Part shown: in pieces, positions 24,737-28,056 of the stretch | Numbering within the stretch: the stretch's first letter is position 1 | Layout of the letters: every line of letters starts with the position of its first letter | Origin: Rossellomorea marisflavi | GTDB lineage: Bacteria; Bacillota; Bacilli; Bacillales; Bacillaceae_B | DNA: 64,000 bases | Direction: 5' to 3' | NCBI RefSeq assembly: GCF_009806575.1 | Contig: NZ_CP047095.1 | Coordinates: 2,484,001 to 2,548,000 of the forward strand | Program-made: the position numbers and the translations under genes | The notes under the pieces: model-generated | What the model saw: the letters and a program-made list of their open reading frames with translations, nothing else | What the model was told of the DNA's origin: nothing | Databases searched by the model: none

Positions 24737-25162
24737 TCAATCAAAGAGCTTTTTAAATTCCCCGTAGCCTTCTTCTTCAAGTTTCTCCAGCGGGATGAAC
24801 CTGAGAGCGGCCGAATTGATGCAGTAACGGAGACCGGCCGGACCAGGACCGTCATCAAAGACATGCCCGAGATGGGAATCGGCTTCTTTGGACCGGACCT
24901 CTGTCCGTACCATAAAATGACTCCTGTCTTGTTTTTCGACGATGTCTTCCTTTTGGATCGGTTTTGTGAAGCTGGGCCATCCGCAGCCAGCGTCGTATTT
25001 ATCCCGTGAGCTGAAAAGGGCTTCACCGGACACGACATCCACATAGATACCATCAGAGAAGTGGTCCCAATACTCATTCCTGAATGGAGGCTCGGTTCCA
25101 TTGTTTTGTGTCACTTCATACTGTTCTGCTGTGAGTTTATTTTTTAGCTCTTCTTTACTCAT
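24737..25162 (-). CDS. msrB: peptide-methionine (R)-S-oxide reductase MsrB
   Basis: 141 residues. [34 protein letters not shown] and the catalytic [11 protein letters not shown] (Cys near 116) are the MsrB signature. The CxxC pairs for zinc found in many MsrB proteins are absent, as in B. subtilis YppQ. It reduces the R-form of methionine sulfoxide in proteins using thioredoxin. Its start overlaps the msrA stop by 4 bases, so the two are translationally coupled and cover both sulfoxide stereoisomers. Confidence 0.96.
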
Positions 25163-25701
25163 CCTTCATCCCTCCAATGATGCTGAATGAATCCGGCGCG
25201 GCCGGATCCTATGCTGTATTGACGATAGTGTGTGGGATTCTTTTTATAGTAATCCTGGTGATATTCCTCTGCTGGGTAGAACTCGGATGCAGGGAGGATC
25301 TTGGTTGCGATCGGCTGACTGAATCGCCCCGAAGCAGCGAGTGCCTGCTTTGAAGCCTCCGCAGCCTCCTTCTGGCTGTCATCATGATAAAAGATGACGG
25401 TCTGATACGATTGCCCCCGATCATGGAACTGCCCTCCGGGATCAGTCGGATCGATCTGCTGCCAGTAGAGCTCCAGCAACTTTTCATATGGGAATACATC
25501 GGGATCATATTCGATCTGCACTGCTTCATAATGTCCGGTTGTCTCAGAGCATACCTGACGGTAAGTCGGATTCTTGACATGCCCTCCCGTATAACCGGAT
25601 GTGATGCCGTAAATACCAGGCTGTTCATCGAATGGTTTGACCATGCACCAGAAACATCCCCCGGCGAAGGTCGCCCATTTTTTCTTCTTATCACCCGTCA
25701 T
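25159..25701 (-). CDS. msrA: peptide-methionine (S)-S-oxide reductase MsrA
   Basis: 180 residues with the active site GGCFWC near residues 14-19, [15 protein letters not shown] and [12 protein letters not shown], all standard for MsrA. It reduces S-methionine sulfoxide, restoring oxidised proteins. ATG 25701 is chosen (AAAGGG eight bases before); an upstream GTG at 25710 overlaps that site. It is first of msrA-msrB, with PTS IIA downstream. Confidence 0.96.
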
Positions 25702-25841
25702 GATCAACACCCTTTTCTTTTCGTGATTTCATACTGTAAGTGTACCCCAAATGCATTGAAAAGTTAAACAATCCGCCTTCCGGGACTTCGTACCGAGGTA
25801 ATGTCCGGAAGATTCGATGAACCCGGCCTGTAAAGTAAAAA

Positions 25842-25979: not shown

Positions 25980-27020
25980 TCAGTTTTTCCGCTTCTTGCT
26001 CATGCTCTTCCATTTTTTCCTCTCGAGGGACTCGAGGCGCTTATTCCCCCGCCTTTCCATGTAGGCGATTTCCCGCTGCAGCTTTTCATAGTGAAGATAT
26101 CGATCCTCACTCAACACCCCTTCCTCGATGGCGAGTCTGATGGCACAGCCTGGTTCACCACCGTGTGAGCAGTCATTGAAACGGCAGGAGCGTGCGAGCT
26201 CCTCCACGTCGTTGAACTGGGTGGACAGACCTTCGCTTCCGTGGAGGATCTGTATCTCCCTCATGCCTGGCGTATCGATAAGCGCCGCTCCCGAATCGAG
26301 GAGGAAGAGCTCCCGATGGGTCGTGGTATGCCTTCCTTTATCATCCGAATGCCTGACTTCCTTCGTTTTCTGCAGGCTTTCTTGAAGGAGTTCATTTGTC
26401 AGGGTGGATTTTCCCACTCCGGAAGAGCCCGTCAAGGCTACGGTCTTACCAGGGGTAAGATACGGATACAGCGCCTCCAACCCTGTCCGGTCCAGAGAAC
26501 TGATGGCCATGACGGGCACCCCAAGAAGCGCAGCCTCCACTTCAGAAACCCGTTCAACCGCATCGGGGCAGACGTCGGCCTTCGTCAGGATCACAACGGG
26601 GGTTGCACCGCTCTCCCAGCACAGGATGACGTATCGCTCGATGCGATGAAGATTAAGATCGTCATTCAATGAGCTCAGAATGAAGACCGTGTCAATATTC
26701 GCAGCAATGATTTGCTCCTCTGCCTCATTCCCCGCCATTTTCCGTGAGAACTTGCTCTTCCTGGGAAGGACACGCTCGATGATTGCCTCATCCTTCCTGA
26801 TTGCCACCCAGTCACCGACTGCTGGAAGATCTTCGCGGGAGTCTGATTGGAACCTCATCTTTCCTGTGACCTGACACAGTAATCCTTCTTCCACGTCAGT
26901 CATCACTTTATAGAATCCTTTTTGTTCCGTGACCACCCGTGCCACTTCCATATGTTCTTCAAGATAGGGGGCATATTCCTCCCTGGCACTGCTGAAAATG
27001 ATTGATTTATATTGATTCAA
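25980..27020 (-). CDS. rsgA: ribosome small-subunit-dependent GTPase RsgA
   Basis: 346 residues. An N-terminal OB-fold precedes a circularly permuted GTPase: LTKAD (G4) comes before GSSGVGKST (G1, about 199-207) and DTPGMR (G3). The C-terminal zinc module CRFNDCSHGGEPGC keeps all ligands, and a Lys/Arg-rich tail follows. RsgA checks late 30S maturation and hydrolyses GTP on the ribosome. The protein is longer than B. subtilis YloQ (298) and outside the prkC neighbourhood, so it may be the second, larger RsgA type of bacilli. The start is TTG 27020 with GGGAGGA upstream. A terminator hairpin and a small ORF precede it in the same transcript (see 27036-27244). Confidence 0.93.
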   Translation of the reverse strand: MNQYKSIIFSSAREEYAPYLEEHMEVARVVTEQKGFYKVMTDVEEGLLCQVTGKMRFQSDSREDLPAVGDWVAIRKDEAIIERVLPRKSKFSRKMAGNEAEEQIIAANIDTVFILSSLNDDLNLHRIERYVILCWESGATPVVILTKADVCPDAVERVSEVEAALLGVPVMAISSLDRTGLEALYPYLTPGKTVALTGSSGVGKSTLTNELLQESLQKTKEVRHSDDKGRHTTTHRELFLLDSGAALIDTPGMREIQILHGSEGLSTQFNDVEELARSCRFNDCSHGGEPGCAIRLAIEEGVLSEDRYLHYEKLQREIAYMERRGNKRLESLERKKWKSMSKKRKN

Positions 27021-27035
27021 TGGTATTTCCTCCCT

Positions 27036-27072
27036 AAAATAAAAAATCCATCCGCGTTCATCACGCAGACGG
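27036..27072 (-). terminator. intrinsic terminator in the rsgA leader (attenuator)
   Basis: Read leftward, CCGTCTGCGT (27072-27063) pairs with ACGCGGATGG (27057-27048), two G-U pairs allowed, around GATGA. ATTTTTTATTTT follows. It ends only about 15 bases before the rsgA start, so it must control entry into rsgA. The loop side GCGTGATGAA (27066-27057) is also complementary to the leader ORF at 27131-27122. Confidence 0.75.
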
Positions 27073-27108
27073 ATTCTCCTTCAGGCAGAATGATCCCTGT
27101 TAATCCCG

Positions 27109-27183
27109 TTAGAGCACGGAAGCGTGATGAATGTGGTGTTTGTATCGGTATGTGTGGTTGAATGCTTCAGTCGTGAATCCCAT
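27109..27183 (-). CDS. His-rich leader peptide ORF upstream of rsgA
   Basis: 24 codons from ATG 27183, with AGG eight bases upstream; an in-frame ATG at 27189 would add two residues. The peptide has five histidines, four of them in the run HHIHH, and ends ASVL. It lies on the leader RNA between a good promoter (27217-27244) and the terminator (27036-27072). Base pairing links its start region, its His codons and the terminator. These features suggest a regulatory uORF, not a functional protein. A conserved peptide function is the alternative. Confidence 0.6.
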   Translation of the reverse strand: MGFTTEAFNHTYRYKHHIHHASVL

Positions 27184-27192
27184 ATTCATCAC
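27121..27192 (-). promoter_or_regulatory. mutually exclusive pairing segments of the rsgA attenuator
   Basis: Segment 1, GTGATGAAT (27192-27184, over the uORF start), is complementary to segment 2, ATTCATCAC (27132-27124, inside the uORF). Segment 2 (TTCATCACGC, 27131-27122) is also perfectly complementary over 10 bases to segment 3 (GCGTGATGAA, 27066-27057), the 5' side of the terminator. So 1:2 with the terminator (off) and 2:3 (on) exclude each other. This is the layout of ribosome-mediated attenuators. Confidence 0.6.
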
Positions 27193-27216
27193 CTGCTCTC
27201 TTTTGTCGTTATTCAA

Positions 27217-27244
27217 ATTATATCATCATTATTCCGAAGTGCAA
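27217..27244 (-). promoter_or_regulatory. sigma-A promoter of the rsgA leader
   Basis: TTGCAC (27244-27239) and consensus TATAAT (27222-27217) with a 16-base spacer. Predicted start near 27210, about 25 bases before the leader ORF. Confidence 0.7.
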
Positions 27245-27315: not shown

Positions 27316-28056
27316 ATGAGCCAAGAACAATATTTGAATAAAGCCGCGATGTATGATCTTTTGTCCTGCTACTACAAATATTCCAATCCGAATATGCACC
27401 ATCATTATTATCTGAAACACCTTAAATATATGAGGCTTGCCCTGGAAGCCCAGAGAGCCGATCTGACGACGGCTGCCCAACCGAGCTATGTCCGGGTATT
27501 CCACGGAGTACCGGATGCCGGTGAGGTCGATGTTTATGTCAATGGTCACCGCGTCCTGCGGAAACTCGCATTCAAGGATGTCAGCGACTACCTCACCCTG
27601 CCGGGGGGCAAATACCATATTGATGTGTATCCGACAGGAACCAGTACAGAAACGATCATCAGCAAAAAGGTAAAAGTCGATCCGGGTAAGGCATACACGT
27701 TGGCAGCAGCAGGAACCACGAAAAAGCTGCAGCTCCTTCCGTATGTGGATGAACCTGGTGTCCCTGCCGGTGAAACGAAAGTGAAATTCATCCACCTTTC
27801 ACCGGATGCCCCTGCCGTTGACATCGCGGTCAAAGGAAGAGATGTCATCTTCCCGAATGTCTCCTTTAAGCAGGCAACGGAATACCTGGGATTGACTCCG
27901 ATGACCGTCGACCTCGAAGTCAGGCCGGCAGGATCAAAGGACGTTGTCCTGTCCATCCCTGATGTCAAATTCGAGGCGAATCAGGCCTATACGATCATTG
28001 CAGCGGGCTTCGCAGGCGGCGAGCCTGCCCTGGAAGCTGTGCTCATCAACGGATAA
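27316..28056 (+). CDS. DUF4397 domain protein
   Basis: 246 residues. A His/Tyr-rich head of about 55 residues (HHHYYLKHLKY) precedes two tandem beta-sandwich repeats of about 95 residues. Each starts VRVFHGVPDAGEVDVYVNG or VKFIHLSPDAPAVDIAVKG, the DUF4397 signature. No signal peptide is present, unlike many exported DUF4397 proteins. ATG 27316 has AAGGAG ten bases upstream; longer in-frame starts lack one. The upstream sigma-K-like promoter hints at a spore-coat or mother-cell role (inference). Function unknown. Confidence 0.85.
   Translation: MSQEQYLNKAAMYDLLSCYYKYSNPNMHHHYYLKHLKYMRLALEAQRADLTTAAQPSYVRVFHGVPDAGEVDVYVNGHRVLRKLAFKDVSDYLTLPGGKYHIDVYPTGTSTETIISKKVKVDPGKAYTLAAAGTTKKLQLLPYVDEPGVPAGETKVKFIHLSPDAPAVDIAVKGRDVIFPNVSFKQATEYLGLTPMTVDLEVRPAGSKDVVLSIPDVKFEANQAYTIIAAGFAGGEPALEAVLING

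Follow-up and report, generated by a model that had tools for sequence, protein, structure and literature searches.

The gene rsgA2 of Rossellomorea marisflavi, which encodes a second RsgA GTPase, is probably controlled by a ribosome-mediated transcription attenuator that would permit read-through while a stationary ribosome occupies the start codon of a short leader ORF. The leader is a real, conserved and gene-specific RNA element. It lies in a window of 64,000 nucleotides (contig NZ_CP047095.1, positions 2,484,001 to 2,548,000), to which all window coordinates below refer, and is read from the minus strand.

Results

The leader is preceded by a candidate promoter, TTGCAC-16-TATAAT (27217..27244, minus strand; TTGCAC at 27244-27239, TATAAT at 27222-27217), which the first-pass annotation had named at these coordinates. 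Both boxes are located there; however, the -35 box matches the consensus at only three of six positions, and the pair is absent from the list produced by a consensus scan. Among 35 members of the genus, 29 have a promoter-like pair (at least 9 of 12 positions) ahead of the leader ORF; relative to the leader ATG, its position is -60 to -62 in 26 of these 29. The Shine-Dalgarno (SD) sequence GCAGGTG of the leader ORF (27190..27196; duplex with the anti-SD, -9.4 kcal/mol) overlaps segment 1, the putative anti-antiterminator GTGATGAAT (27184..27192), which is positioned immediately 5' of the start codon. The ORF itself comprises 24 codons (MGFTTEAFNHTYRYKHHIHHASVL; 27109..27183, with the ATG at 27183 and the end at 27109) and includes segment 2, TTCATCACGC (27122..27131), the proposed 5' arm of the antiterminator. 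Segment 3, GCGTGATGAA (27057..27066), would serve both as the 3' arm of the antiterminator and as the 5' arm plus loop of an intrinsic terminator (27036..27079). The latter consists of a hairpin at 27079-27041 with the loop GATGA and a T-rich tail reaching to 27036, and it is followed by the SD sequence of rsgA2, AGGGAGG (27029..27035; score -10.0, including a penalty of 0.8 for the TTG start). All these minus-strand elements, that is, the 24-codon ORF, the three segments and the terminator, were recovered at the positions given in the first-pass annotation by direct reading and by recomputing the segment and hairpin coordinates. Judged by sequence, the leader thus has the anatomy of a translatable ORF with its own SD sequence 5' of an intrinsic terminator, translation being predicted.

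Segment 2 is perfectly complementary to 9 nt of the SD/start region (9 bp with segment 1) and to 10 nt of the terminator 5' arm and loop (segment 3). This double complementarity, part of the original proposal, was confirmed. When the segment-2 region was shuffled with dinucleotides preserved, only 7 of 5000 sequences had two perfect complements of this length. The leader folds more stably than shuffled sequences (z -4.74), and so does the terminator region (z -7.43). On the other strand, a divergent ORF of 245 amino acids (27319-28056) begins at a distance of some 75 bases from the promoter of the leader; it matched no NCBIfam family.

RsgA is a ribosome-assembly GTPase. The gene behind the leader (25980..27020, minus strand; TTG start at 27020) encodes a protein of 346 amino acids that scores 165.6 bits on TIGR00157 (cut-off 100), and its P-loop GSSGVGKST, its DTPG motif and the cysteines and histidine of its zinc finger align with the RsgA chain 2ykr_W. 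By family model, GTPase motifs and zinc finger, the product belongs to the RsgA/EngC GTPases. The target had simply been called rsgA; it is indeed an RsgA gene, but a second copy, for which we coined the name rsgA2, and the genome holds another that is not preceded by such a leader. RsgA2 is 31% identical to this other copy, which is encoded elsewhere and whose own upstream region contains no leader ORF by the rule given below; it was rejected as the target. Relatives of RsgA2 are about 40-57% identical in other families and the rest of the phylum, and 51-52% identical on one cyanobacterial and one Streptomyces plasmid, which suggests that RsgA2 represents an old, separate branch of RsgA proteins. 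The nearest named protein, like the nearest named locus, shows 93% identity and comes from R. marisflavi. With a limit of E 1e-60, RsgA2 was detected in 55 of 61 genomes (its own genome counted), in 108 of 250 genomes sampled from the class and, at E 1e-55, in 27 of 149 genomes from the phylum. RsgA-like genes also occur on 177 plasmid records, every one of them less than 60% identical. A role for a second RsgA was not described in the literature that we found. Downstream of rsgA2, on the same strand, lie msrA and msrB (24737-25710), which encode methionine sulfoxide reductases.

Conservation of the leader was assessed in 135 regions upstream of rsgA2. These comprise 59 regions from the 61 genomes, representing all RsgA2 copies therein with four second copies included, and 76 regions chosen by hand for family spread (54 from the class sample and 22 from the phylum sample). 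A leader ORF was called if it started with ATG, had an SD duplex of -6 or better, comprised 10-40 codons and was located within 330 nt. By this rule, which picks a wrong ORF in L006 and maybe in a few other leaders that were kept in the counts, 107 of the 135 regions contain a leader ORF. The corresponding figure for the other rsgA copy is 5 of 21 upstream regions (20 hand-picked ones and that of the genome itself), of which two have gene starts that look misplaced; these five were counted by the ORF rule alone. Inspected by eye, the ORF precedes 35 of 36 first copies of rsgA2 in the genus, the exception being G030. The region upstream of G030 belongs to the 28 that have no ORF by rule, as do those of three of the four second copies.

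The pairing segments were examined by asking whether a single 16-nt stretch in the later part of the ORF can pair well with two partners, the SD/start region and a stretch before rsgA2. Four of the 107 leader ORFs leave too little sequence for this test, resulting in 103 testable leaders. In 62 of these no more than 5 of 100 shuffles were as good, and in 50 no more than 1 of 100, where about 5 of 103 would be expected to pass by chance and related sequences are not independent of each other. Leaders that passed include 31 of 35 in the genus and 31 of 68 outside it, the latter distributed across 22 family codes; 41 of the 103 failed. When segments were swapped between 45 hand-picked lineages, a leader's own segment 2 ranked first in 19 cases, with about one expected by chance. 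The lineage of the window uses the pair GTGATGAAT/ATTCATCAC, most species of the genus pair AAAGTGGGT with ACTCACTTT, and four others (L020, L026, L028 and L029) pair AAAGCGG with CCGCTTT. Within the genus the segment sequences therefore differ yet remain complementary, and the comparison with relatives bears out the original proposal in that ORF, segments and terminator recur in altered form with their complementarity retained.

In the columns of a genus alignment, 23 of 28 rows are fully paired in the antiterminator and 19 of 28 in the pairing of segments 1 and 2; the window lineage, whose segments are shifted relative to the alignment columns, for that reason does not count among the fully paired rows. 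Column-wise covariation in this alignment was not above that of shuffles (covariation score 121 of 500). Despite this null result for columns, the compared sequences display mutually exclusive antiterminator and anti-antiterminator pairings whose segments co-vary between species. A test of the position of segment 1 was discarded as not discriminating: segment 2 paired best at the SD in 68 of 103 leaders and a reversed segment 2 did so in 60 of 103, a result for which composition accounts.

A covariance model built from 28 leaders of the genus and searched in the 61 genomes produced 42 matches. All 36 matches with E 0.022 or better are located directly upstream of rsgA2, and eight of them are leaders outside the training set. 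Of the six weaker matches (E 0.048-0.088), five lie elsewhere and one is antisense to a leader. The model misses most leaders of other families. Rfam yielded no match at gathering score in the window and 15 related loci.

The segments and their conservation also bear on a simpler reading, namely that the terminator is constitutive and insulates rsgA2, with the ORF and the pairings being incidental and the gene served by its own downstream start or by read-through at a fixed rate. In favour of this reading, the hairpin is highly stable (-24.4 kcal/mol), and some families possess a second hairpin, GACCGT..ACGGTC followed by a T-run, between the attenuator and rsgA2 (8 of 135 upstream regions: L039, L045, L047, L049, L050, L052, L053 and L054). 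However, mere insulation leaves unexplained why an ORF with its own promoter is conserved and why the segments change together, and we regard it as improbable. Where the fold model takes the second hairpin as the terminator, it is predicted to be unresponsive to a parked ribosome in L045 and responsive in L050.

Energy calculations were in line with an attenuator that responds to ribosome position. The first-pass annotation had held that the pairing of segments 1 and 2 together with the terminator excludes the pairing of segments 2 and 3, and the two folds behaved accordingly in the models. For the window leader without a ribosome, the 1:2 pairing plus terminator is predicted at -51.2 kcal/mol and the antiterminator at -42.5 kcal/mol; with a parked ribosome, represented by masking the RNA to a point 16 nt beyond the start codon, the values are -36.4 and -33.6 kcal/mol, respectively. 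Since the finished terminator stays better by 2.8 kcal/mol despite the parked ribosome, read-through must be kinetic. With the ribosome parked, the antiterminator is predicted to prevail until RNA synthesis reaches about 27044, a position inside the T-run. For RNA 3' ends of 27058-27052 it predicts the antiterminator to be favoured even without a ribosome, with the 1:2/terminator fold regaining at 27048. Given this transient preference, both the on and the off state would depend on timing. At the 3' end tested, the probability of the terminator, P(terminator), drops merely to about 0.5 in the window.

A usable terminator was assigned by the rule of our script in 65 of the 103 tested leaders. 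In an ensemble model, placing the ribosome at the start codon instead of the stop codon lowered P(terminator) by more than 0.2 in 47 of these 65, comprising 31 of 33 in the genus and 16 of 32 outside it. The remaining 18 of 65 had no such drop, and P(terminator) rose by more than 0.2 in 2 of the 65. Among shuffled segment-2 regions, 9% show the drop. Ribosome position would thus alter the choice between the two folds in these models.

The codon at which a ribosome is most effective was located by sliding a footprint of 30 nt through the ORF of the 47 responsive leaders, which had been selected for their response to a start-parked ribosome and not for the width of the responsive stretch. Mean P(terminator) was 0.17, 0.22, 0.47, 0.53, 0.70, 0.75 and 0.84 with codons 1 to 7 in the P site, and 0.75-0.99 beyond. 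The modelled effect is mostly lost past about codon 6. A stall early in the ORF had been proposed to open the terminator; it does so in the fold models, which narrow the effective region to codons 1 and 2 or so (up to 4). As modelled, the leader would detect whether its start codon is occupied.

In agreement with such a detector, neither a conserved motif nor a conserved codon run was found among the leader peptides compared. The stretches that are shared (SARQLT in most members of the genus, AQPS in several families, AEIV in clostridial leaders) mostly fall on the RNA pairing segments, so constraints on peptide and RNA are not fully separable. The layout had been likened to that of amino-acid and antibiotic attenuators, and while the anatomy of a leader-ORF attenuator stands, the peptides compared contain neither the conserved run of regulatory codons of his- and trp-type attenuators (five His in the window, three in the nearest relatives and no run elsewhere in the genus) nor the conserved arrest motif of macrolide (+X+/RLR) leaders. 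A drug- or amino acid-specific attenuator, in which ribosomes stall at codons within the ORF as in hflXr-like or his leaders, could nevertheless be suspected from the window peptide, where an RYK (a macrolide-type +X+ motif) is combined with those His residues within 24 codons; a few other peptides of the genus have +X+ triplets at other positions (KKR in L028, KNR in L038 and L040). The two nearest relatives, however, have QYE and QYQ in place of RYK, most other peptides of the genus have neither a +X+ triplet nor a His run, and the fold model answers to codons 1-4 rather than to the middle of the ORF. We therefore consider stalling within the ORF very improbable, and a His or +X+ peptide was rejected as a general signal because it is not conserved across the genus.

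Lineages without a clear terminator were looked at separately. In several of them, among which are clostridial leaders such as L120, L124 and L127 and that of Listeria monocytogenes, the end of the leader ORF and the SD sequence of rsgA2 are alternative sites that a C-rich stretch can mask. We picked by eye 29 leaders as being without a clear terminator (28 plus that of L. monocytogenes), although the terminator script assigned a hairpin to three, namely L059, L063 and L113. In 12 of the 29, a ribosome at the start codon instead of the stop codon is predicted to free the rsgA2 SD sequence by more than 0.2; the change is smaller in the others, and its direction is opposite in L060 (-0.13) and L. 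monocytogenes (-0.27). These models are suggestive only; some lineages may control translation of rsgA2 instead of termination. In L. monocytogenes (NZ_LR134403.1; L195:2290-2440) the RsgA2-like gene adjoins pnp and is 46.5% identical over the match. Its short ORF (MAIVKMENLIINTGVFYL) and a GCTCC/GGAGC pair facing the SD sequence resemble a translational version, for which the model gives opposite switching.

Discussion

The following sequence of events is proposed for the attenuator in front of rsgA2. Transcription would start at the leader promoter and generate an RNA whose SD/start region constitutes segment 1. If there is no ribosome, or if ribosomes have moved past the first codons, segments 1 and 2 are predicted to pair, the terminator would form and transcription would stop before rsgA2. 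A ribosome or 30S complex at codon 1 or 2 would hide segment 1, and the freed segment 2 could then pair with segment 3 before the 3' arm of the terminator emerges, such that polymerase reads on. As neither a peptide motif nor a run of codons is conserved, an amino acid or peptide arrest is unlikely to be the signal; for the same reason start-codon occupancy itself is the likely one, and by analogy with toiL, tetracyclines, pleuromutilins or a failure of initiation might bring it about. The RsgA2 produced would, as judged from its family, act on the affected 30S subunits.

The same attenuator might serve an internal signal. Immature or defective 30S subunits stuck on the leader SD sequence would let the supply of RsgA2 follow the load of faulty 30S subunits, which amounts to homeostasis rather than a drug response. 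In support of this, segment 1 coincides with the leader SD/start region, RsgA acts on late 30S particles according to an abstract on YjeQ/RsgA, and the fold model requires just that codons 1-2 be occupied. Homeostasis and drug response may, however, both hold, and we judge the purely internal signal possible but rather unlikely. Returning to the inducing signal in the form that we favour, a leader ORF start held by a ribosome, drugs may be among its causes, as suggested by analogy with the systems discussed below.

Among the matches listed in the open-access literature, no title or abstract opening has a leader of rsgA as its subject; a term-seq study was reportedly published by Dar et al. in 2016. 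Several described systems resemble the rsgA2 leader in part, rli80-hflXr of Listeria and toiL of E. coli most closely. As outlined in PMC6310831, rli80-hflXr of Listeria likewise combines a leader ORF, an anti-antiterminator, an antiterminator and a terminator before the gene of a ribosome-associated GTPase paralog; induction by lincomycin was shown there, start-codon and segment mutations were tested, and regulation was ribosome dependent. It differs in that its ORF has 14 codons and contains RLR, whereas in the rsgA2 leader no motif is conserved, the SD region makes up segment 1 and the target is RsgA, that is, a factor of the 30S side (PMC6310831). The E. coli uORF toiL offers a parallel for the signal that we propose. 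According to PMC12121999, tetracycline holds ribosomes at start codons, and both tetracycline and retapamulin act via toiL, which senses the start-codon-held ribosomes through altered base-pairing. The consequences there are different, as the toiL-topAI system regulates a toxin-antitoxin gene first at translation and subsequently through Rho-dependent termination, with no intrinsic terminator in the model given in the abstract (PMC12121999). A conserved uORF with RNA structure before a ribosome-associated GTPase gene is also represented by uORFC-6-1 upstream of hflX in Bacillales (51 representatives in PMC8632094). In that case, however, the RLR peptide is conserved and the gene is a different one, the term 'rsgA' occurring 0 times in the main text of PMC8632094. 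The terms GTPase, yloQ and engC are likewise absent from the passages of PMC2965389 that were consulted.

An independent hint that second RsgA proteins are tied to antibiotic stress comes from Streptomyces, where WblC is reported to activate one RsgA/EngC paralog: in the account of WblC/WhiB7 in PMC7157823, SCO6149 and SCO5211 are among the paralog pairs with one WblC- and tetracycline-dependent member. Unlike the rsgA2 leader, this control is exerted by a transcription factor, with no RNA leader in that account (PMC7157823). RsgA has also been tabulated in a biosynthetic cluster for protein-synthesis inhibitors (PMC9290621), and E. coli RsgA is described as inactivating ribosomes against phage T4 (PMC10475562). 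In Enterococcus faecium, RsgA fell under chloramphenicol as reported in PMC12441150, where either RsgA copy may be concerned; this counts against the drug reading.

It is tempting to go one step further. Tentatively, and with more doubt than confidence, we suggest that across Bacillota RsgA2 might be an inducible rescue or resistance factor for ribosomes trapped in initiation, a 30S counterpart of HflXr. The leader would then be a general sensor of start-codon occupancy in which the SD region acts as anti-antiterminator, the peptide is irrelevant, and one and the same logic, depending on the lineage, operates a terminator or blocks access to the ribosome-binding site of rsgA2.

If the proposed control is correct, a widespread second RsgA would gain a job as a protein made only when ribosomes are held at gene starts, and a ribosome-assembly factor would be tied to ribosome-blocking stress, likely including antibiotics. 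The group of attenuator-controlled ribosome factors (HflXr, ARE-ABCF, Erm) would thereby be extended to the small subunit. The leader could moreover report initiation-blocking drugs independently of peptide sequence, and the reason why many Bacillota keep two RsgA proteins would become directly testable.

RsgA2-like genes in two plasmid settings are worth recording. On a plasmid of Lysinibacillus fusiformis (L196:1905-3427) such a gene is located directly 5' of the fosfomycin-resistance gene fosM; no comparable leader ORF was obvious by eye upstream of it. A plasmid of the cyanobacterium Leptolyngbya boryana (L197:1810-1955) carries an RsgA2-like gene accompanied by a CCTCCC stretch and by a short ORF that a strong SD sequence precedes, and because of this arrangement the leader may extend beyond Bacillota.
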